Source: a virus
DNA: 24,608 bases
Direction: 5' to 3' (one strand)
Virus record (IMG/VR): IMGVR_UViG_3300025030_000402
Location: 1 to 24,608 of that record
Part shown: one piece after another, positions 1,061 through 22,247 of the stretch
Layout: every line of letters starts with the position of its first letter
How positions within the stretch are numbered: the stretch's first letter is position 1
Notes under the pieces: generated by a model
The model's input: only the letters and a program-made list of their open reading frames with translations
What the model was told of the DNA's origin: nothing
Databases searched by the model: none
Program-made: the position numbers and the translations under genes

Positions 1061-1089
1061 TTGACATATTACGCATAAAAGACTATATT
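1061..1089 (+). promoter_or_regulatory. Strong sigma70-type promoter
   Basis: A perfect -35 box TTGACA (1061-1066), a 17-base spacer and a near-consensus -10 box TATATT (1084-1089). Transcription should start near 1096, run through the 87-aa gene at 1157 and the hairpin-rich region, and stop at the terminator at 2057-2094. This is the best promoter match in the window and probably serves an early or constitutive transcript read by host polymerase. Confidence 0.8.
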
Positions 1090-1420: not shown

Positions 1421-1432
1421 CCCGGCCGGCCG

Positions 1433-1491
1433 GCTGCTTGCCATAAAGCAGCAAACCTGTGCTCTCTTTCACTGAGAGAGGGCAGAGGTTT
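1433..1491 (+). repeat. Two-hairpin module, copy 1
   Basis: GCTGCTT-loop-AAGCAGC (1433-1452) is followed directly by a long stem from AAACCT (1453-1458) to AGGTTT (1486-1491), with one G-G mismatch. A 12-base palindrome CCGGCCGGCCGG (1422-1433) abuts it. After the module comes an A/T-rich spacer, AAGGAG and the ATG at 1551. The same order recurs at 1701-1766. Confidence 0.7.
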
Positions 1492-1550
1492 ATGGGTTTA
1501 TGATTCCCTAAAAATCAAATTTTTTAATCTCAAAAAAAAAGGAGAAAAAT

Positions 1551-1691
1551 ATGAAAAAGAAATTATCTCGGTGCTGCAAAGCACCAATAAGAAAAACGAC
1601 CTTCTTTTCCCCCTCCGAGGCTTGGTATGGAGCCTCTGAAGGGACTGTCTGCACTTTGTGCAGAAAAATTATCGTCTGGCCTTCCCAGTAA
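1551..1691 (+). CDS. Small zinc-ribbon-like phage protein
   Basis: A 46-aa ORF with a strong AAGGAG site (1539-1544) and ATG at 1551. It has a Cys-Cys pair at residues 8-9 (SRCCKAPIRK) and a CTLC knuckle at 34-37, a common pattern in tiny phage and bacterial zinc-ribbon proteins. Three or four hairpins (1570-1585, 1617-1636, 1648-1664, 1675-1698) fall inside the reading frame, which is unusual for so short a gene. Metal binding is inferred from the cysteine spacing; no further function can be assigned. Confidence 0.55.
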   Translation: MKKKLSRCCKAPIRKTTFFSPSEAWYGASEGTVCTLCRKIIVWPSQ

Positions 1692-2053
1692 AGCCAGACT
1701 GCCGCTGTTCAGGCACAGCGGCTAAACCTGTACTCTCTCTATCTATGAGAGAGAGAGTAGAGGTTTTCGTGAGCTACACACGCAAAAAAAAGCGGTTTTT
1801 TAACTCTTTTTTAAAGAGGAAATTATGGAAGCGTCTTTTTTTCAGTCACGTAATTGTAACTCAGCAGCAAGAAGCGTTCCTTGCTGCGTCTATAAAGGAA
1901 AATCGTCAATTTGACGACCTTGATGATCTTCAGCGAACTTATTGGTTTTGGGAGTTAGAAAACTCACTCTTTGACGACAGCTCTACGCTCTCTACTGAGA
2001 GCGAGGAGCGTTTACCTGATCGGCCAGCCGCTGGCTTGAAGCGGCAAACATGA
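1658..2053 (+). CDS. Uncertain reading frame in hairpin region
   Basis: A 131-codon open frame starting at a GTG without a visible ribosome site. Its first half runs through hairpins and is probably not translated from that start. Its second half reads like protein (acidic QFDDLDDLQRTYWFWELENS, about residues 86-105). A better start signal, AGAGG with ATG at 1825, opens a different frame that stops at 1912-1914 after 29 codons. The hairpin GCAGCAAG/CTTGCTGC (1864-1887) lies in the overlap of the two frames. The real gene may be broken, frameshifted or absent. Confidence 0.25.
   Translation: MQKNYRLAFPVKPDCRCSGTAAKPVLSLSMRERVEVFVSYTRKKKRFFNSFLKRKLWKRLFFSHVIVTQQQEAFLAASIKENRQFDDLDDLQRTYWFWELENSLFDDSSTLSTESEERLPDRPAAGLKRQT
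1701..1766 (+). repeat. Two-hairpin module, copy 2
   Basis: GCCGCTGT-TCAGGC-ACAGCGGC (1701-1722) is followed by a long stem from AAACCT (1724-1729) to AGGTTT (1761-1766), with the same G-G mismatch as copy 1. One pair differs in a compensated way: G-C in copy 1 is A-T here. The module again precedes an A/T-rich spacer, an AGAGG ribosome-site-like string and an ATG (1825). A diverged, reordered relative lies at 1981-2045. Confidence 0.7.
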
Positions 2054-2056
2054 ACT

Positions 2057-2094
2057 AACTCAATGTCTTTTTTTAAGGCATTGAGTTTTTTTTT
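2057..2094 (+). terminator. Rho-independent terminator
   Basis: AACTCAATG (2057-2065) pairs with CATTGAGTT (2079-2087). With the inner TCTT/AAGG pairs the stem is about 13 bp with a T5 loop, followed by an uninterrupted T run to 2094. It ends the unit begun at 1061. The stem base is the same AACTCAAT motif repeated as far as 2484. Confidence 0.85.
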
Positions 2095-2712: not shown

Positions 2713-2892
2713 ATGGAAAATCCATCTGATCTGGTCTTCAAGGCTAGATTTAAGTTGAATTTGTCACAACAGGAATTTGCGGCATTGATAGGAGTCCACC
2801 AAGGAACAATTTCCGCATGGGAGACGGGTGCCATGTGTCCCAATAGGATTCACATGGCAAAAATAAATCTTTTGTTGGAGAAAAAGCCATGA
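2713..2892 (+). CDS. Small XRE/Cro-type HTH regulator
   Basis: A 59-aa protein almost entirely made of a Cro/CI-type helix-turn-helix: FKARFKLNLSQQEFAALIGV, then HQGTISAWETG (about residues 8-40). The ATG at 2713 is chosen over an upstream TTG at 2668 because GAAAGG (2701-2706) precedes it. The stop overlaps the next start (ATGA at 2889-2892), so the two genes are translationally coupled. It sits immediately downstream of the AAACTCARTA array and is the obvious candidate to bind it, as regulator or origin-binding factor. Binding is inferred from location. Confidence 0.8.
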   Translation: MENPSDLVFKARFKLNLSQQEFAALIGVHQGTISAWETGAMCPNRIHMAKINLLLEKKP

Positions 2893-3269
2893 CTCCTACA
2901 ATGATTGACCTTCTCTCTTTTGAGTGGGAGGAGCAAAAAGAGATTGAAAATCATGCCGCTTCAAAAAGGCGGGAAATCGAAGCAAAGATTTTGGAATTGA
3001 TAAAAAAACCTGACTCTGCGGAGGGAACGACTCATGAGGAAGGGATTTTTTACAAGGTTTCCACGACTTTTTCACTTAATCGAAAATTATTAGATGTTGA
3101 AGAGGTGAAAAAGATTTGTCATCTCCTGCCAGCGGAACTTTTCAGGTGGAAGCCGGAAATTTCAGTTTCCGAGTTCCGCAAACTTGATGCGGAACAAGGA
3201 CGGATTTTGTCGTCTGCTTTGACTATATCTGAGTCGAAGCCATCACTAAAAATCGTTAGAAAAGGATAA
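2889..3269 (+). CDS. Conserved phage protein of the Sak4/SSB module
   Basis: A 126-aa protein with an acidic coiled N-terminal helix (EEQKEIENHAASKRREIEAK, about 14-33), then a beta-rich segment (IFYKVSTTFSLNRKLLDVEE) and a C-terminal part containing LFRWKPEISVSEFRKLD. From memory, similar proteins with an FRWKPE/FRWKAE segment lie beside Sak4-like ATPases and DUF669 proteins in many phages and have no established function. It is coupled to the HTH gene by ATGA, with five bases before the Sak4-like start. A role in recombination or replication is contextual. Confidence 0.65.
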   Translation: MTPTMIDLLSFEWEEQKEIENHAASKRREIEAKILELIKKPDSAEGTTHEEGIFYKVSTTFSLNRKLLDVEEVKKICHLLPAELFRWKPEISVSEFRKLDAEQGRILSSALTISESKPSLKIVRKG

Positions 3270-3273
3270 AAAA

Positions 3274-4029
3274 ATGGAAATAAAAAAGCCTGATCTTTTG
3301 CCTGTCCGAACCATTATTTACGGGTCGGACAAAGTAGGGAAGTCCAGTTTTGCGGCCTCCGCTCCGAATCCCCTTTTTTTGGATCTTGAAGGCGGTCTTG
3401 GAGAGTTGGCAGTTGACTGCGTAGATTTACGTAGTCAGGATTTTTCAGCTGTCATGTTAGTCATGGCAGAAATTTACAAGGACTCCAGGGGTTACAAAAC
3501 TCTTGTGATAGACTCCTTGGACTGGCTTGAGTCCAAGATTTTTGCTTCTGTTTGTTTGGCCAATAAGGTCAAAAACATTGAGGAGATTGGGTACGCAAAG
3601 GGGTATATATTTGCGCTCAATTTCTGGCATCAATTTATTCAGGGACTCGACGCCATCCGCTCCCAGTGCGGGATGGAAATCATTTGCATCGCACATGCGC
3701 AGATTGTGCATGTCGATGACCCCGCGCAAGTTCCTTATGATAAATGGGGATTAAAACTTCACAAAAAGGCGCACGCTTTATTTTGTGAGTGGGCTGACGC
3801 GATTCTTTTTGCGTCTTATGAAACTTACACTCGTCAAGTGGGTGAGAGTTTCAATCAAAAAATCAACCGTGCTTACTCAGCGGGAAACAGAGTGATTTTT
3901 TGTGAAGAGCGACCGTCTTTTGACGCTGGTAATCGTTTTGGCCTGCCAGAAAAACTTGAATTATCTTACTCGGCCTATGCTGCCGCTATTGCGCAATCAC
4001 GCGCAAATAAAACTCAAAAAGGAGAATAA
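3274..4029 (+). CDS. Sak4-like RecA-fold ATPase (phage recombinase)
   Basis: A 251-aa single-domain ATPase. Walker A is GSDKVGKSS (residues 17-25) and the Walker B-like strand is TLVID (76-80, Asp80); a sensor-like strand IICIAHAQ follows. This is the AAA_24/Sak4 pattern, the family of phage RecA-like single-strand annealing and strand-exchange proteins that act on ssDNA with an SSB partner. Genes two and three downstream are a DUF669 SSB-like protein and then a nuclease, the usual company of Sak4. The next start is only two bases after the stop, with AAGGAG inside the 3' end of this gene. Some phage annotations simply say AAA family ATPase. Confidence 0.82.
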   Translation: MEIKKPDLLPVRTIIYGSDKVGKSSFAASAPNPLFLDLEGGLGELAVDCVDLRSQDFSAVMLVMAEIYKDSRGYKTLVIDSLDWLESKIFASVCLANKVKNIEEIGYAKGYIFALNFWHQFIQGLDAIRSQCGMEIICIAHAQIVHVDDPAQVPYDKWGLKLHKKAHALFCEWADAILFASYETYTRQVGESFNQKINRAYSAGNRVIFCEERPSFDAGNRFGLPEKLELSYSAYAAAIAQSRANKTQKGE

Positions 4030-4031
4030 AA

Positions 4032-4298
4032 ATGTTTAAATTAACAGAAGAAACTGAAAATCGACTTTTAGTTGAAATTACCCTTCCAGAAGGGAGACCG
4101 CAAATCGCTTTGGTTCAAGAGGCAAAAACAGAAATCAAGGAATTGAAAGACCATTTTTACGGAAAAAAAGTCCGTCTTAATGGCCGGCTGACTACCGGCA
4201 TGGCATTGATGTTGGGGCATGAATTATGCCATATCTGCAAAAGTGTAGAAATTTTCGACCCCAAAGAGAATGCCTACCTTACGTGCATTTCTCATTAA
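4032..4298 (+). CDS. Csx3 (Crn3)-like small protein, candidate ring nuclease
   Basis: An 88-aa protein with AAGGAG before its ATG. The layout matches the Csx3 fold as I remember it: N-terminal strand (NRLLVEITL), a central VRLNGR strand-turn (47-52), a helix with His63 and His67, then VEIFDPK (Asp76, Lys78) and a terminal His88. In Archaeoglobus Csx3 the catalytic region has His60, Asp69, Arg71 and His80; the His-to-Asp spacing of nine and Asp-to-basic spacing of two are the same here, with Lys replacing Arg. Csx3/Crn3 degrades cyclic tetra-adenylate made by type III CRISPR systems, so a phage copy could be an anti-CRISPR. It lies between Sak4-like and SSB-like genes, so a housekeeping recombination role is the main alternative. 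Confidence 0.6.
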   Translation: MFKLTEETENRLLVEITLPEGRPQIALVQEAKTEIKELKDHFYGKKVRLNGRLTTGMALMLGHELCHICKSVEIFDPKENAYLTCISH

Positions 4299-4323
4299 TT
4301 TTAACCTCAAAGAAAGGAAAAAT

Positions 4324-4779
4324 ATGTCTAGTTATGAATTTGATGCAACGCAGGTTGATCCTCGCAGATCTTTTGAGCCTATCCCTGCTGGCACCTACCG
4401 AGTTATTATTTCTGCCTCAGAGATGAAGGACACAAAAGCTGGCGATGGAAAATACCTGAAACTCGAAATCGAAGTAATTGAGGGAGAGCATCAGGGGGCA
4501 AAGATTTTTGATAACTTGAATCTTGTAAACAAAAACAAAGAGACTAAGGAAATCGCTGACGCCAGTTTGTCGGCAATTTGCCATGCCGTAGGCAAGCTGC
4601 GAATCATGGATTCGGAAGAGTTGCACAATTTGCCGCTCATGGCAAAAGTCAGCCTGTCCAAAGCTCAAGACGGCTATGAGGCAAAAAATAAGATTTCGGG
4701 CTATTCGGCTTGTGAGTCCACTAAAACCTCAGCCAAACCCGCTCCACCTGTCACTACGTCAAAGCCTCCTTGGATGTAA
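4324..4779 (+). CDS. DUF669-family protein, probable phage ssDNA-binding protein
   Basis: A 151-aa protein. The ATG at 4324 is preferred over 4270 because GAAAGGA precedes it at proper spacing and the family usually begins as MSSYEFDATQV. Family features are the FEPIPAGTYRVIISASEMKD strand pair (about 18-37), GDGKYLKLEIEVIEGEHQGA, and a low-complexity tail of Lys, Pro and Thr ending PPWM. DUF669 proteins are widespread next to Sak4-like recombinases and are proposed to be phage SSBs. The tail here lacks the acidic IPF tip of bacterial SSB, whereas the nuclease and helicase downstream have one. Confidence 0.75.
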   Translation: MSSYEFDATQVDPRRSFEPIPAGTYRVIISASEMKDTKAGDGKYLKLEIEVIEGEHQGAKIFDNLNLVNKNKETKEIADASLSAICHAVGKLRIMDSEELHNLPLMAKVSLSKAQDGYEAKNKISGYSACESTKTSAKPAPPVTTSKPPWM

Positions 4780-4790
4780 AAAAAATCATG

Positions 4791-4812
4791 GGCGCATCTA
4801 AAAAGGTGCGCC
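4791..4812 (+). terminator. Hairpin after the SSB-like gene; attenuator candidate
   Basis: GGCGCATC and GGTGCGCC (4791-4812) pair around a TAAAAA loop and are followed by CTCTGTTTGG, only partly T-rich. It is too weak to be a sure terminator and may reduce read-through or protect the upstream message from 3' decay, lowering nuclease expression relative to the SSB-like protein. Confidence 0.5.
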
Positions 4813-4845
4813 TCTGTTTGGAAATCATTTTTGAAATAGGAAAAA

Positions 4846-4998
4846 ATGACTCAGTGTGAAAAAAATTGTCTCAGATTGATTCTTTGGGAACTGGAAGAAG
4901 CAAAAGGGAAACTCAAAAGTGATAGAAGAAAAATTTTAGGCGAATTTTTATGCACGCTCATGAATGATCCGGCGCGGATCATCAGGAGGAGCAAATGA
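4846..4998 (+). CDS. Small hypothetical protein coupled to the nuclease
   Basis: A 50-aa ORF with ATAGGAA before its ATG and an ATGA overlap with the nuclease start (4995-4998). The protein is charged and helical (LILWELEEAKGKLKSDRRK, about 11-29) with three cysteines and a basic C-terminus (ARIIRRSK). No family is recognised. Its likely purpose includes translational coupling of the nuclease. Confidence 0.55.
   Translation: MTQCEKNCLRLILWELEEAKGKLKSDRRKILGEFLCTLMNDPARIIRRSK
4966..4989 (+). promoter_or_regulatory. Palindrome and strong Shine-Dalgarno before the nuclease
   Basis: GATCCG-GCG-CGGATC (4966-4980) lies immediately before AGGAGG (4984-4989), a perfect ribosome site five bases from the nuclease ATG at 4995. 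Folding of the palindrome could expose or occlude the site, giving translational control. Confidence 0.5.
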
Positions 4999-5840
4999 AA
5001 CTACCTGAGCGGAAAGATCTAGTCGCAGAGGCCATATATGCGACTTATAAAAAAGGTGAACATCGCGCTCACCTCGGAGCTTCGCAGATAGGCACTGAGT
5101 GCGAGAGATCGTTGTGGTACACTTTTTTTTGGTGTACTGCTGTACAGCATGAGCCGCGCATACTGCGGCTTTTTGAGAGTGGGCATCTTTCTGAAACTCG
5201 TGTGCTGGACGAGCTTAGACGGGCAGGATTTGAGGTTTTTGATAAAGAGGTAGGCACAGGTAAACAGTTTTCTTTTAGTGCCTGCAATGGCCATTTTGGC
5301 GGTTCCCTTGATGGTTTTATCAAAGGAGTCCCCGATGCTGAAAAAACCGTGCATGTTTTGGAACTTAAAACCAGCAATGATAAAAATTTCAGGACTTTAG
5401 AAAAAGATGGAGTCTTGAAAGCTCATCCTGTCCATTATGCACAAATGATGTGCTATATGGGAGCGTTTGGGCTTGAGCGTGCGCTTTACATATCCGTGAA
5501 TAAAAACACTGACGAAATCTATTCTGAGCGCGTCCATTTTGAAAAGAGCGTTTATAACGCTCTTCTGGAAAAGGCTCTGCGCGTTATTGAATCAAAAAAA
5601 CCTAGTCCAAAAATCAGCGAAGATCCGTCTTGGTACCAGTGCAAACTCTGTGATCATGCTGGAGTTTGTCAAAATCATCAAAATCCAGAAAAAAACTGCC
5701 GCACCTGTGAATTTTCCCAGATCGGCGGAAATGGAACTTGGTTTTGCGGAAAAACAGACCAAATTTTGAGTTTTGAAGAACAGCTAAAAGGCTGTCAGAA
5801 ATACCAACTTAAAATTTTATTAGACGATATTCCATTCTGA
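4995..5840 (+). CDS. PD-(D/E)XK nuclease with Cas4/AddB-like Fe-S pattern
   Basis: A 281-aa nuclease. The catalytic core is GGSLDG (Asp106) and LELKTS (Glu123, Lys125), followed by HYAQ (Gln150). Cys36 plus CKLCDHAGVC (Cys216, 219, 225) reproduces the one-plus-three cysteine arrangement that holds a 4Fe-4S cluster in Cas4 and AddB. A second cysteine group (235, 238, 251, 267) resembles a zinc knuckle seen at the end of other phage proteins. It probably resects DNA ends to make ssDNA for the Sak4-like recombinase. The last residues are DDIPF, matching the SSB C-terminal tip. It is coupled by ATGA to the small gene upstream and followed by the helicase after ten bases. Confidence 0.82.
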   Translation: MKLPERKDLVAEAIYATYKKGEHRAHLGASQIGTECERSLWYTFFWCTAVQHEPRILRLFESGHLSETRVLDELRRAGFEVFDKEVGTGKQFSFSACNGHFGGSLDGFIKGVPDAEKTVHVLELKTSNDKNFRTLEKDGVLKAHPVHYAQMMCYMGAFGLERALYISVNKNTDEIYSERVHFEKSVYNALLEKALRVIESKKPSPKISEDPSWYQCKLCDHAGVCQNHQNPEKNCRTCEFSQIGGNGTWFCGKTDQILSFEEQLKGCQKYQLKILLDDIPF

Positions 5841-5850
5841 TCTGAGTATT

Positions 5851-7626
5851 ATGATTTTACGTCCTTATCAAGAATCAGCAATCAATGCTCTCGAAATGCA
5901 CTTAGCATTGCGTTCAGATAATCCCTGCGTAGTGATCCCAACGGGCGGAGGCAAAACTATTGTGATTGCGGAATTTATTAAACGTCAAATCGAAAAACGT
6001 TTCGACATTCGCATTTGCGTTTTAGTTCATACAAAAGAACTAATTGAACAGAATTTTGAAAAATTTTGTCTTCATTTTCCGTTTGCGGATGTTGGGGTTT
6101 TTTCTGCGGGCTTGAAGCGCAAAGATGATGCTCAGATTCTTTTTGCAGGAATTCAGAGCATTGTTAATGCTGAAATAAAACCGTTTGATGTCATCATTAT
6201 TGATGAAGCTCATCGAATTCCGGTTGAGGGCGAAGGGCAATACAGACGCTTTCTAACGGATCAGTGGTATGCCAACAATTCACTGCGAATTGTTGGCATG
6301 ACTGCAACGCCATTCAGAATGAAAAACGGTATGATCTGCGATTCAAAAAATATCCTTAATAAAATCGTGTATGAGGCCAGCATCCCGCGCCTCATACATG
6401 ACGGTTTTTTGTGCCACATTACCTCTGCCAGAGGTTCTGTCAAAGTGGATTTTTCTGGTGTAAAAATTCGCTCAGGAGAGTATGCAGAGGATGAGGTCCA
6501 GGACGTTATGACGGCATCTGGAACAACTCAAAAAATTGTGTCAGATATTTTGAGTATAGCTAGCGATAGAAAGCATTGGTTGATTTTTTGTGCTGGGATA
6601 AAACACGCAGAAGAAGTTAATCAAGAACTCATCGCAAGAGGCATATTATCCTGCGTTGTCCATAGCCTCTGTGGTGATACAGAGAGAGACGAACGCATCA
6701 ACGCCTTAAAAGATAAAAAAATTCAGGCATTGGTCAATGTATCACTTTTGACGGAGGGGTTTGATGCCTCCCATATTGATTTGATTGCGTTGTTACGTCC
6801 AACAAAATCCCCTGGATTATATTATCAAATGGTTGGTCGGGGTCTACGGATTGATCCCGAAAAAAAGGACTGCCTAATCCTAGATTATGGTCAAAATATC
6901 TCGCGCCACGGCGCTATTGACGCAATTTCTATTAGCAAAAAAAAGGTTCTTGTAACTGACAAAAAAGCACCTTCTAAAAAATGTCCTTCCTGCGGATACC
7001 CTAACGCTACGGCTGTACTCGAATGTATCGAATGCGGTTTTATTTTTCCTGAAAGAGAAATTGAATTAACCGAAAAATCAGCAGATAGCTCTATTTTATC
7101 AGTTAATGGATGGGTAAAAGTCCAGGATGTGAGTTATGAATATCATCACTCGCGAAAAGAGGGAAAACCTGACTCTCTAAAAATCACCTATCATTGTGGC
7201 TGGAATGATAAGTTTTCAGAATGGATTTGTTTGCTTCATCCAGGGTTTGCCGGAGAAAAAGCTAAGGACTGGTTTTATCGGGCAACGCAGGGAAAAATAG
7301 AATGGGATTCTACATGCATTGAGGATCTCGTTGAATTAGGCGAAAACGGATTTTTATTTGATCCTATTGAAATTTTTGTAAAGAAATCAAAGGACTCAAA
7401 ATTTTTTGAGATAAAAAACAAAAAATTTGATTATGCTCAAGCCGTCCCTCACGCGTACTGCATGAAGTGTGAAAAATTTATGGGCATGGTTGAGCAAAAT
7501 AATGGTTTTATTTGCGAGTGTGGATATTTACTCAGAGTAAAAAAAATTGATAGCAAAAAAAGCCATATTTCTGATGAAAATGAATATGAAATGAGTCACG
7601 AAGTAAATTCGGAAATACCATTTTGA
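5851..7626 (+). CDS. Superfamily 2 DEAH-type helicase with zinc ribbons
   Basis: A 591-aa helicase with clear motifs: PTGGGKT (30-36), IDEAH (117-121), TATPF (151-155), and QMVGRGLR (326-333) in the second RecA domain. A zinc ribbon CPSC...CIEC lies at 378-395, and a second CMKC...CEC group at 537-557. The region between them (about 420-530) is an accessory domain found in phage helicases of this kind. It probably unwinds or remodels DNA in recombination-dependent replication. The C-terminus is acidic and ends NSEIPF, similar to the SSB tip and to the preceding nuclease. The start is the ATG at 5851 with a weak GAG site; the stop is followed by AAAGGA for the primase. Confidence 0.85.
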   Translation: MILRPYQESAINALEMHLALRSDNPCVVIPTGGGKTIVIAEFIKRQIEKRFDIRICVLVHTKELIEQNFEKFCLHFPFADVGVFSAGLKRKDDAQILFAGIQSIVNAEIKPFDVIIIDEAHRIPVEGEGQYRRFLTDQWYANNSLRIVGMTATPFRMKNGMICDSKNILNKIVYEASIPRLIHDGFLCHITSARGSVKVDFSGVKIRSGEYAEDEVQDVMTASGTTQKIVSDILSIASDRKHWLIFCAGIKHAEEVNQELIARGILSCVVHSLCGDTERDERINALKDKKIQALVNVSLLTEGFDASHIDLIALLRPTKSPGLYYQMVGRGLRIDPEKKDCLILDYGQNISRHGAIDAISISKKKVLVTDKKAPSKKCPSCGYPNATAVLECIECGFIFPEREIELTEKSADSSILSVNGWVKVQDVSYEYHHSRKEGKPDSLKITYHCGWNDKFSEWICLLHPGFAGEKAKDWFYRATQGKIEWDSTCIEDLVELGENGFLFDPIEIFVKKSKDSKFFEIKNKKFDYAQAVPHAYCMKCEKFMGMVEQNNGFICECGYLLRVKKIDSKKSHISDENEYEMSHEVNSEIPF

Positions 7627-9800: not shown

Positions 9801-9881
9801 ATGGGTCTCTACTATGTTCTCTGTGTCAGATATCTAAGTAAACTGTGTGAAAAAAAAGGAAATAATGAGAAAAAAAACTGA
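9801..9881 (+). pseudogene. Remnant of a DUF1566-type C-terminus
   Basis: Bases 9811-9831 match the end of the intact DUF1566 gene (10478-10498) at 20 of 21 positions. In frame they read YYVLCVR, compared with HYVRCVR in the intact gene. The frame (from ATG 9801) continues for 26 codons without further similarity. It looks like the stump of an earlier DUF1566 copy left by duplication or recombination; it is not a template repeat, because sequence upstream of it is primase coding DNA. Confidence 0.55.
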
Positions 9882-10131
9882 TCTTAATCAAAAAAATCTT
9901 GTCCGCACACTAAAACAAATTCCTGGAGTTTCAGTTGTCGATTTATCGGCAGTTGGGCAGGGTTGTCCAGATTTGTTAGTCGGCTATAAAGGCAAAAATT
10001 TTCTATTTGAAATCAAAAATCCTGAGACGAAAGGAAAACTAACTGAGTGTCAGAAAAACTGGTTTTTATTTTGGAAAGGAAGTGCTTTTGTTCTTTATGA
10101 CATTAATGATTTTTTTGAATTAACGGAATAA
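9865..10131 (+). CDS. VRR-NUC-type PD-(D/E)XK nuclease, copy 1
   Basis: An 88-aa protein. ATG 9865 is chosen over GTG 9847 because AAAGGA precedes it and copy 2 begins with the same MRK-TDLNQK sequence. The VRR-NUC core is visible: GQGCPDLLVGYKG (catalytic Asp), FLFEIKN (Glu-x-Lys), then CQKNWFLFWKG with the conserved Gln. Stand-alone phage VRR-NUC proteins are thought to be junction-resolving or structure-specific nucleases. Its stop abuts the DUF1566 start. A second copy at 11615 shares 123 identical bases but has diverged ends, suggesting recent duplication or gene conversion. Confidence 0.8.
   Translation: MRKKTDLNQKNLVRTLKQIPGVSVVDLSAVGQGCPDLLVGYKGKNFLFEIKNPETKGKLTECQKNWFLFWKGSAFVLYDINDFFELTE
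9898..10020 (+). repeat. 123-bp exact repeat, copy in VRR-NUC 1
   Basis: Identical over 123 bases with 11648-11770, ending abruptly after GAAATCAAAAAT at both places. It covers the nuclease core and could support recombination that deletes or duplicates the intervening DUF1566 and methylase genes. Confidence 0.9.
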
Positions 10132-10500
10132 ATGACAGATAGATTTATTGATAATGGTGATACAATCACTGACACAGAGTCAGGATTGATGTGGCAGAAA
10201 GAGACACTAGACAAAACATTTAGTTTTGAGGAGGCAGAAAAATATGCAGCAGAACTGTCTTTAGCAGGTTTTTCTGATTGGAGAGTGCCTACGGTGGATG
10301 ATTTTTATTCTATGATAAAATATTATAAGTCTAATCCCATTTGTGATTCGATTTTTGCACTAAACTCTTTAAGTTATTGGTCGTCTACCGCAGATGTTGA
10401 TAGTATATACTATGCTTGGGGCGTGTACTTCAGCTGCAGCTACGTTGGCTACATCGACTACAATAAGAAAAGTAGCCACTATGTTCGCTGTGTCAGATGA
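10132..10500 (+). CDS. DUF1566 (Lcl C-terminal domain) protein, probable DGR-type variable protein
   Basis: A 122-aa, single-domain protein: DTESGLMWQKE (13-23), LAGFSDWRVPT (44-54), SYWSST (81-86), and a C-terminal AWGVYF...HYVRCVR ending (95-122). This is the DUF1566/FGE-related C-type-lectin-like fold used for ligand display, and one of the fold groups hit by diversity-generating retroelements. Codons 93-110 end in C in 13 of 18 cases, against 6 of the first 92 codons, as expected if AAC codons of a template had been randomised at adenines. No signal peptide is present. It begins one base after the VRR-NUC stop and its stop overlaps an ATG at 10497. No reverse transcriptase or template repeat is in the window. 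Confidence 0.75.
   Translation: MTDRFIDNGDTITDTESGLMWQKETLDKTFSFEEAEKYAAELSLAGFSDWRVPTVDDFYSMIKYYKSNPICDSIFALNSLSYWSSTADVDSIYYAWGVYFSCSYVGYIDYNKKSSHYVRCVR
10408..10498 (+). other. Candidate DGR variable region with IMH-like end
   Basis: Codons 93-110 (10408-10461) are mostly NNC (tac, ggc, agc, tgc, atc, gac) in an otherwise A/T-ending gene. The following conserved block encoding HYVRCVR (10477-10497) could be the initiation-of-mutagenic-homing site. A 20/21 copy of its end lies at 9811-9831. Confidence 0.5.
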
Positions 10501-11488: not shown

Positions 11489-11637
11489 TTGATACACAAA
11501 AAATTGGCATGTTTTTGGAGCACGCTAAAAAAGTGTTGACCCAATATAATGATAGGCTTTTGGATATTGCTCATCGAGATGAGATTGGTGAGATTGATAA
11601 GAATGAGAAAAACTATGAGAAAAAGAACGGATCTTAA
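11485..11637 (+). CDS. Small hypothetical protein
   Basis: A 50-aa ORF with start overlapping the previous stop (ATGA, 11485-11488) and end overlapping VRR-NUC copy 2 by 23 bases. It is helical and charged, with ILE/LYS-rich C-terminus (EIGEIDKNEKNYEKKNGS). No family is recognised. The overlaps on both sides suggest it belongs to a translationally coupled chain. Confidence 0.45.
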   Translation: MIDTQKIGMFLEHAKKVLTQYNDRLLDIAHRDEIGEIDKNEKNYEKKNGS

Positions 11638-11893
11638 TCAAAAAGAGCTTGTCCGCACACTAAAACAAATTCCTGGAGTTTCAGTTGTCGATTTATCGGC
11701 AGTTGGGCAGGGTTGTCCAGATTTGTTAGTCGGCTATAAAGGCAAAAATTTTCTATTTGAAATCAAAAATACTAGAACAAAAGGGAAACTGAATGAGCGT
11801 CAAGAAGAGTGGTTTTCCGCATGGAAAGGTCAGGTTTGTGTTGTTAGAGATATTGATGATTTGCTAGATGTTTTGTGGTTGGAATATAACTAA
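11615..11893 (+). CDS. VRR-NUC-type PD-(D/E)XK nuclease, copy 2
   Basis: A 92-aa paralogue of the gene at 9865, with the same PDLLVG, FEIKN and Gln-Trp motifs. The ATG at 11615 gives the same N-terminus as copy 1 (MRK-RTDLNQKELVRTLKQ); an in-frame start at 11549 would add 22 unrelated residues. The central 123 bases (11648-11770) are identical to copy 1 while both ends differ (TRTKGKLNERQEEWFSAW versus the copy 1 tail), so only the catalytic core has been homogenised. Confidence 0.8.
   Translation: MRKRTDLNQKELVRTLKQIPGVSVVDLSAVGQGCPDLLVGYKGKNFLFEIKNTRTKGKLNERQEEWFSAWKGQVCVVRDIDDLLDVLWLEYN
11648..11770 (+). repeat. 123-bp exact repeat, copy in VRR-NUC 2
   Basis: Direct repeat of 9898-10020, 1750 bases downstream in the same orientation. 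Flanking sequence on either side has diverged, including third positions, which favours gene conversion of the core or an older duplication with purifying recombination. Confidence 0.9.
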
Positions 11894-12072: not shown

Positions 12073-12179
12073 ACTATCATAAAATGATTATTGCTCAAAT
12101 GAAACTGAAAAATATTTTGTTGCAAGGGGAAATTGAGCAAGACAAACGGATGAAAGAAAGAAAAAGGGACTTGTTATGA
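12069..12179 (+). CDS. Tiny basic ORF coupled to methylase
   Basis: A 36-aa Lys/Met/Ile-rich helical ORF linked by ATGA overlaps both to the membrane protein upstream and to the adenine methylase downstream (12176-12179). No function is recognised; its main effect may be to carry ribosomes onto the methylase start. Confidence 0.4.
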   Translation: MNYHKMIIAQMKLKNILLQGEIEQDKRMKERKRDLL

Positions 12180-12733
12180 AAGCACCATTTCCTTATTTTG
12201 GCGGAAAATCTGCTGTTGCAAAACAGATATGGTCTGCGTTAGGAGACCCTGATCATTATATTGAACCTTTTTTCGGTTCAGGAGCAGTTTTGCTAAATCG
12301 TTCCTGGACTCCCATCTCTGATTATTGTGAGACCGTCAACGACAAGGACGGCCTGCTATGCAACGTTTGGAGAGCTTTGCAAGCTGATCCAGACGCAGTT
12401 GCAAAATATTGTGATTGGCCTGTAAATCATGCCGATCTTTGCGCTAGACGCCGAGCAATGATTGCTGACCAAAATAATCTTTTAGAAAAATTTATTGCTG
12501 ATACGTCATATTATGACGCAAAACTCGCAGGTTTTTGGATTTGGTCTGCGTCCTGCTGGATCGGTTCAGGTTTAACCAATCTAAATGCAATACCTCATAT
12601 CAGTCATTCAGGCATAGGCGTACATGCTATTGGACAAATACCTCATATCAGTCATTCAGGCATAGGCGTACATGCAATAGGTCAGATTCCGCACATAAGT
12701 AATGCTGGCAAGGGAGTCCAAGACCCCCTATAA
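12176..12733 (+). CDS. Phage DNA adenine methylase, N-terminal part (frameshifted)
   Basis: 185 aa up to a stop in the shifted frame. KAPFPYFGGKSAVAKQIW (2-19) is the D12-class (Dam-type) SAM-binding motif, IEPFFGSGAVLL (28-39) follows, and NDKDGLLCNVWRAL continues the fold. The C-terminal residues are a tandem repeat of a 16-residue IPHISHSGIGVHAIGQ unit. The remaining half with DPPY is in the next frame from about 12729. Removing one C from the CCCCC run at 12724-12728 joins the halves as GKGVQDPYKLSIYEWF, so the intact gene would be 12176-13154. It would methylate adenines to evade restriction or regulate phage DNA; as written it is broken unless the frame is recovered. Confidence 0.8.
   Translation: MKAPFPYFGGKSAVAKQIWSALGDPDHYIEPFFGSGAVLLNRSWTPISDYCETVNDKDGLLCNVWRALQADPDAVAKYCDWPVNHADLCARRRAMIADQNNLLEKFIADTSYYDAKLAGFWIWSASCWIGSGLTNLNAIPHISHSGIGVHAIGQIPHISHSGIGVHAIGQIPHISNAGKGVQDPL
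12590..12721 (+). repeat. 48-bp tandem repeat inside the methylase
   Basis: Units at 12590-12637 and 12638-12685 are identical over the first 38 bases; a third, diverged partial unit runs from 12686 (IPHISNAGKGV). The period is 16 codons, so copy changes keep the frame. Related phage methylases carry IPHI/LPHL-type repeats in this region from memory, probably part of the target-recognition segment. Confidence 0.85.
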
Positions 12734-13154
12734 ATTAAGCATTTATGAATGGTTCCGTGAGTTATCAGAACGGTTACGTTATGTTCGTGTTGTGTGTGGC
12801 GATTGGTCACAGGTTTGTGGTGGGAATTGGCAAAATAAAATAGGAACATGTGGCATTTTTTTTGATCCGCCTTATTCTGCAGAGGCTGGAAGACTAAAAA
12901 AAATTTATGCTTGCGAGTCAACAACTGTAGCACATGATGTTAGAAAATGGGCAATCGAACGAGGATCAAAAAATGACTATAAAATTGTGATTGCAGGTTA
13001 TGAAGGCGAGCATGAATCTTTGTTGAATTATGGGTGGACTAGTGAGTTATGGAGTGCTAACGGAGGCTATAGTACAGCAGAAAATAAAAATCGGCATAAG
13101 GAAGTTTTGTGGTATTCACCATATTGTAAGAGAAGTCAACTAACTCTTTTTTAG
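12702..13154 (+). CDS. Phage DNA adenine methylase, C-terminal part (frameshifted)
   Basis: The frame carrying the catalytic motif FFDPPYSAEAG of N6-adenine methylases, preceded by LSIYEWFRELSERLRYVRVV and CGDWSQVCG. It is followed by a KIVIAGYEGEHE strand, GGYSTAENKNRHKEVLWYSP and a basic end. The ATG at 12702 overlaps the previous frame and probably is not a real start. The two halves together resemble a complete phage adenine methylase. Explanations are sequencing error, phase variation at the C run, or a recent inactivating mutation. The gene ends seven bases from the convergent lysis gene. Confidence 0.78.
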   Translation: MLARESKTPYKLSIYEWFRELSERLRYVRVVCGDWSQVCGGNWQNKIGTCGIFFDPPYSAEAGRLKKIYACESTTVAHDVRKWAIERGSKNDYKIVIAGYEGEHESLLNYGWTSELWSANGGYSTAENKNRHKEVLWYSPYCKRSQLTLF

Positions 13155-21446: not shown

Positions 21447-21830
21447 TTAATGCCATGTAATCACGCCATTGACCACAAAACTAAATGACCTTGTAACGAC
21501 CCCGCCTTTTGCCGCAGAGACTCCGACACTTGTAATGATTGCAGACATAGATGCCCAGGTTGCGCCTGTTCCCGTTCCCTCTGGATAGATGTTGAGTGTC
21601 ACAGTTGCGCCCACAGTCAGCGCCTGTTGCCCGTTCGTATCTGTTTCATCCCAGTAGCACTCCATTGATCCCGCTGCGCTAACCTCATCTGCGTAAACTG
21701 TTTTTGACGCTGCTCCCATCGCAGCCGCTTCAATCGTCCCTGCTGTCTCCGTAATTTGATAACTCAAAATCTCTGCGATTGTGTTTGTCGTAACCTTAAC
21801 GACGCCCTCTCGTCCTGAATGCATGCTCAT
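21447..21830 (-). CDS. Major tail tube protein, copy B
   Basis: A 127-aa beta-rich protein of a phage tail tube family: GREGVVKVTTNTIAEILSYQ (6-25), a MECYWDETDTNGQQALTVGA stretch (55-74), and GGVVTRSFSFVVNGVITW at the end. It should polymerise into the tail tube. It is a close paralogue of the preceding gene, differing mainly at the first 15 residues and in one loop (TGTGATWASM versus ATTGDQYGTC). Gene order (terminator, tube, gpG, tape measure) supports the call. Confidence 0.8.
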   Translation of the reverse strand: MSMHSGREGVVKVTTNTIAEILSYQITETAGTIEAAAMGAASKTVYADEVSAAGSMECYWDETDTNGQQALTVGATVTLNIYPEGTGTGATWASMSAIITSVGVSAAKGGVVTRSFSFVVNGVITWH

Positions 21831-21854
21831 TTTTCTACTCCATCAAAAAAAATA

Positions 21855-22247
21855 TTAACTTACAGCGCCCCACGTAATCACGCCATTGACCACAAAACTA
21901 AATGACCTTGTAACGACCCCGCCTTTGGCTGCTGAAACTCCGACACTCGTTATAATTGCGCTACAGGTACCGTATTGGTCTCCCGTAGTTGCGCCCTCTG
22001 GATAGATGTTGAGCGTCACCGCCGCGCCCACAGTCAGCGCCTGTTGCCCGTTCGTATCTGTTTCATCCCAGTAGCACTCCATCGAGCCTGCCGCACTCAC
22101 TTCATCCGCAAAAACTGTTTTGCTGGCCGCTCCCATCGCCGCCCCTTCAATTGTTCCTGCCGTCTCCGTTATTTGATAACTCAAAATCTCTGCGATTGTG
22201 TTTGAACCTTTTTTAACTGTTCCTTCTCGTCCTGCGTGCGTTCCCAT
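21855..22247 (-). CDS. Major tail tube protein, copy A
   Basis: A 130-aa paralogue of the gene at 21447-21830, separated by 24 bases. The central part (about residues 16-83) and the C-terminal strand pair are nearly identical to copy B. Copy A ends in WGAVS where copy B ends in WH. Which copy forms the tube, or whether both do, cannot be read from sequence. Both have intact frames and their own start codons after A-rich leaders. Confidence 0.8.
   Translation of the reverse strand: MGTHAGREGTVKKGSNTIAEILSYQITETAGTIEGAAMGAASKTVFADEVSAAGSMECYWDETDTNGQQALTVGAAVTLNIYPEGATTGDQYGTCSAIITSVGVSAAKGGVVTRSFSFVVNGVITWGAVS

Follow-up and report, generated by a model that had tools for sequence, protein, structure and literature searches.

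The gaps between early cistrons of phage T7 hold well-established sites of RNase III processing. The gap between T7 genes 1.2 and 1.3 folds into 4 bp, a 1x1 mismatch, 13 bp and a 3-nt loop, and several T7 gaps have related arms. ROOL and GOLLD RNAs are large, highly structured and phage-associated, and REP-like or other mobile palindromes are recognised by their multiple dispersed copies. The put sites of phage HK022 consist of two adjacent stem-loops on the early transcript, ahead of terminators, and their stems have a 5' triplex strand, G35/A9 and a U28 bulge (PMC9378689).

Here we describe a phage locus dense in hairpins, in which a two-stem module occupies matching positions in both gaps among three small open reading frames, and we compare it with each of these systems.

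Genomic context of the hairpin region

The window (the whole stretch of DNA that was analysed, 24.6 kb, from an IMG/VR virus record) belongs to a tailed, unclassified phage. The minus strand carries the structural genes (capsid, tail, lysozyme-like), which run from the right end and occur again at 27-791, and the plus strand carries the early genes between 1157 and about 13150. The hairpin region forms the beginning of the early strand, directly past the point where the two gene sets diverge.

The sequence-only reading had placed at least eleven inverted repeats between a consensus promoter and a strong terminator, and all three elements were recovered. The sigma70-type promoter (TTGACA-17-TATATT, 1061-1089, plus strand) matches the consensus at 11 of 12 positions, and no plus-strand match near the beginning of the early region is better. 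The intrinsic terminator (2057-2094, plus strand) has a stem of 13 pairs at 2057-2087, followed by a T run, with a pairing probability of 0.98. The region 1422-2094 holds 13 non-overlapping perfect-stem hairpins, one of which (1674-1699, plus strand) adjoins the second module on its 5' side; dinucleotide shuffling (200 shuffles) gave 2.0 +/- 1.4 and never more than 6. Folding stability is also in excess over shuffled sequence: the minimum free energy of the 673 nt at 1422-2094 is -263.5 kcal/mol (z -10, from only 20 shuffles), folding 1096-2094 gives z -9.9 (again only 20 shuffles), and the single modules give z -4.4 and -5.5 (200 shuffles). When hairpins were counted with an identical counter in the window and in 256 loci from phages and prophages, only the 100 most hairpin-rich tiles being shuffled, the region ranked first among 8,798 tiles, at 11.5 sd above its own shuffles, and the next best other locus reached 7.0 sd. 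A hairpin cluster in locus L098, upstream of and within a capsid gene, had a lower excess than the window region and was set aside. The unit from 1061 to 2087 would be the 5'-most polycistronic early mRNA, about 1 kb long and coding three small proteins.

Downstream of the unit, 12 AAACTCARTA sites (at most one mismatch, seven exact) lie in both orientations in AT-rich DNA at 2079-2531, out of 26 in the whole window, where 5.6 are expected. This array is a candidate replication origin or operator array. Directly past it, a small HTH_3 (XRE-type) regulator gene (2713-2892) is the first of the next early operon. Elsewhere in the window, two closely similar small genes (9847-10131 and 11549-11893) represent a duplication; they presumably encode VRR-nuclease-like sequence, and a Pfam search with the gene at 9847-10131 gave no match. 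The window also encodes an Lcl C-terminal domain protein (10132-10500, E 1e-25), a D12-type adenine methyltransferase match (12176-13154) that extends across two overlapping frames and includes an internal repeat of a short peptide, and two adjacent similar genes in the tail region (21447-22247).

Three small genes and two copies of a two-stem module

The three small open reading frames, all on the plus strand, differ in how strongly they resemble genes. ORF1 (1157-1420, 87 aa) has coding-like codon use (+8.4 bits) and matches no known family in PHROG or Pfam; its structure model (pLDDT 50) was too low in confidence for a structure search. ORF2 (1551-1691, 46 aa) has the ribosome-binding site (RBS) AGGAG, a zinc-ribbon-like motif (CCxAP...CxxC) and internal hairpins, and its codon use is not coding-like (-8.5 bits). 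ORF3 (1825-2053) has its RBS and ATG (1825) in one frame and its body (1844-2053), which is coding-like (+11.4 bits), in another. The two frames join in a stretch of seven T (1836-1842), and the frame change may reflect slippage, an error in the sequence or a broken gene. The structure model of ORF3 has two helices and a disordered tail.

The module had been described as a GC hairpin followed by an AAACCT...AGGTTT stem, present at 1433-1491 and 1701-1766 with a common G-G mismatch, and this description proved correct. In module 1, stem I (1433-1452, plus strand) has 7 bp and a 6-nt loop and is followed without any spacing by stem II (1453-1491), which has 6 bp, the G.G mismatch, a further 11 bp with two G-U pairs among them, and a 3-nt loop. 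In module 2, stem I (1701-1722, plus strand) has 8 bp and a 6-nt loop and is separated by 1 nt from stem II (1724-1766), which has 6 bp, the G.G mismatch and 10 bp plus an apical extension. Both stems II have in common the 6 bp, the 1x1 G.G mismatch and a CTCTC/GAGAG upper stem.

Pairing is maintained between the two copies. Among 24 aligned pairs there are three double changes, namely the compensatory G-C to A-T change that had been noticed from the sequence and two more in stem I (T-A to C-G and T-A to G-C). Two further pairs differ on one side only and still pair (U.G to U-A and U.G to C-G), which leaves the apical pair as the single one that is lost. The structural alignment of these pairs was made by hand, and the counts for stem I rest on this hand-set register because MAFFT fails to align stem I in register. 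The covariation statistic for stem II alone was 234/500 shuffles, and two sequences give no power to it. The third, rearranged version proposed at 1981-2045 (plus strand) does contain two hairpins, placed within the tail codons of ORF3; its relation to the module is weak, since the stretch at 1979-2012 scores only 10.3 bits against the stem II model (E = 1.7), and it was therefore left out of the module copies.

The two strands of module 1 differ in folding: the sense strand reaches -41.0 kcal/mol against -28.9 for the antisense strand, on which the U.G pairs are lost. Module 2 folds alike on both strands (-39.1 and -38.7 kcal/mol). The much better fold of the sense strand of module 1 suggests that RNA is the likely functional form.

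The placement of the copies is equally regular. The distance from the upstream stop codon to the module is 12 nt after ORF1 and 9 nt after ORF2, such that the modules start just beyond the footprint of a ribosome halted at that stop codon. The A/T spacer, ribosome site and small ORF that had been reported after each copy are indeed there, in a tighter geometry than had been described: 59 nt separate stem II from the next RBS-preceded ATG in the first gap (ATG 1551) and 58 nt in the second (ATG 1825).

Structure across the early genes

The excess of structure continues beyond the terminator. The mRNAs of the next early genes (DUF7173, Sak4, SSB, nuclease and helicase; 2889-7626, plus strand) have more sense-strand structure than shuffles of synonymous codons, a test that preserves the protein and the codon use and is limited by not preserving the dinucleotides at codon junctions. 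The sense z-scores are -3.7 for DUF7173, -5.6 for Sak4, -3.3 for the nuclease and -6.75 for the helicase, and the corresponding antisense values are -2.1, -2.1, -3.6 and -4.4. The excess ends at Prim-Pol (z -1.1), and the late genes are near zero save one at -2.1. A perfect 13-bp hairpin lies at 6269-6299, inside the structured early genes. The early genes of T7 have no such excess. The Sak4 homologues of 46 other phages average z -1.95 on the sense strand and -1.0 on the antisense strand, which suggests that a milder form of the excess may be general.

One can imagine that the early mRNA of this dsDNA phage, from leader to helicase (about 6 kb), is selected for ordered secondary structure that peaks in the hairpin leader and allows it to survive host ribonucleases or RNA-directed defence. 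We regard this as rather unlikely; other Sak4-type phages may have such structure too. If the hairpins work as RNA, the contrast between early and late genes would provide a testable case of structure selection on the mRNA of a DNA phage.

Search for relatives

No counterpart of the hairpin region was found in any of the DNA, peptide, profile, stem-pattern and covariance-model searches. At the DNA level the region matched nothing in phage and plasmid sequences, and Rfam, with GOLLD and ROOL included, gave nothing at gathering or permissive thresholds. ORF1 and ORF2 had no match or only chance matches in phages. A weak match of ORF3 in locus L184 was rejected because it sits within an unrelated long ORF. 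An exact-peptide search of IMG/VR with ORF1, ORF3, Sak4 and the helicase returned no relative, and a scan of GTDB with Sak4 returned no closer one. Among the matches listed, profile scans gave relatives for Sak4 (about 43%) and for the capsid (up to 62%), in different phages, none of them with the hairpin region. One identical fragment (L093) carries the capsid end only.

The module itself was equally confined. Patterns of stem II had no hit in IMG/VR and GTDB, and a looser pattern gave only chance matches, all within one group of unrelated sequences. The covariance model found no further copy in about 2.05 Mb of related phage and prophage loci, and there is none elsewhere in the window. The collections may leave out records very near the window and the IMG/VR profile results are those among the matches listed, so these absences are not proof.

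Possible roles of the module

We tentatively favour, by analogy with the RNase III sites of T7, the possibility that the module is an intercistronic element for mRNA processing or a barrier to decay. The short GC hairpin and the abutting long, 17-bp hairpin with its G.G mismatch would form one RNA element in each gap. The long irregular hairpin would be cut by RNase III, or would block exonucleases, and the outcome would be separate, end-protected mRNAs, as at the early sites of T7. The additional hairpins within coding sequence, like the excess structure over the following 5 kb of early genes, fit selection for a compact, nuclease-resistant early mRNA. The production of this RNA, its cutting or protective action and the enzyme concerned are all inferred.

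This preference for processing or end protection stems from the repeated placement of the hairpins in the gaps between small early genes, and from the T7 gaps, which fold alike and have related arms. As in T7, the hairpins at 1433-1491 and 1701-1766 lie between cistrons of a (here inferred) early polycistronic transcript, and the long stem with its 1x1 mismatch (6 bp, G.G and 10-11 bp) corresponds to the irregular stem of about 17-20 bp of T7-type sites. The hairpin excess, the equal geometry of both gaps, the changes that keep pairing, the strand bias of module 1 and the early/late contrast all argue in the same direction. However, there is no recognised sequence relation to the T7 sites, each long stem is joined directly by a GC hairpin, giving two adjoining hairpins per gap where a single RNase III site would need fewer, and the hairpin-packed coding regions are without precedent in T7. 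The failure to find a homologous locus also counts against processing.

Antitermination of the put kind, in which nascent module RNA would bind host RNA polymerase and let it pass the terminator (2057-2087) and continue through the early genes, is a serious rival even if we think it improbable. It is serious because the layout of two adjacent stems is that of HK022 put and a terminator follows here: on the early transcript the stem-loops adjoin with 0 and 1 nt between them, and that strong terminator lies downstream. The 11/12 promoter is located ahead of the unit, and the plus-strand candidates before the next operon have 10/12 matches and 15-nt spacers. Yet weak promoters at 2580-2663 could alone serve the downstream operon, and when putL was located in HK022 and compared by inspection, neither its sequence nor its detailed stem features were recognised in the module. 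Moreover, stem II is nearly fully paired here, and two copies are present, between genes, although one put site suffices. Translational control is less likely, and slightly more improbable still. Stem II would hide the ribosome site AGAGG, or a phage protein would bind stem II, for which the G.G mismatch and the loop could be the site. In both copies AGAGG is in the 3' arm of stem II, and a start codon (ATG 1492 or GTG 1769) comes 3-5 nt later, directly after or overlapping the stem. These starts lead to little, however: ATG 1492 opens an ORF of only three codons, the sequence at 1772-1843 is not coding-like (-8.1 bits), and the RBS-preceded starts lie 58-59 nt further downstream. The proposal that the small genes are preceded by RNA switches agrees with the placement, and a ligand domain and switching are putative.

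The two remaining readings are also less likely, and we give both low probability. The hairpins could be palindromes acting as DNA, either mobile, as REP-like elements are, or produced where template switching corrects quasi-palindromes close to a replication origin. The neighbouring AAACTCARTA array could be such an origin, and the equal folding of module 2 on both strands also speaks for this reading; the U.G pairs that module 1 forms in its sense strand, together with the sense bias of most early genes, point instead to RNA. For the mobile hairpins proposed from the sequence, multiple dispersed copies would be expected, and the searches described above found only the two, which counts against them. 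Slightly less probable again is a single large, ornate structured RNA of the ROOL or GOLLD sort that would span the entire unit and make its small ORFs incidental. The z-score of -10 over 673 nt would fit, and long-range pairing is possible between the arms of stem I of module 2 and the last hairpin, which could close a domain; the unit differs from these RNAs in being mostly coding and built of local hairpins. Given the lack of an Rfam match and the coding-like codon use of two of the three ORFs (ORF1 and the body of ORF3), the earlier proposal of an ornate phage RNA is unlikely in a purely non-coding form, and the remaining one, ORF2, has its RBS and zinc-ribbon-like motif.

Returning to processing or end protection as the preferred role, no known family fits the module by sequence, while the mechanism would belong to a known kind. 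Provided that the hairpins function as RNA, this phage, which lies outside the well-studied model groups, would offer a compact set of natural intercistronic elements and would help in asking whether phages fold their early messages against ribonucleases, Rho or RNA-targeting defence.
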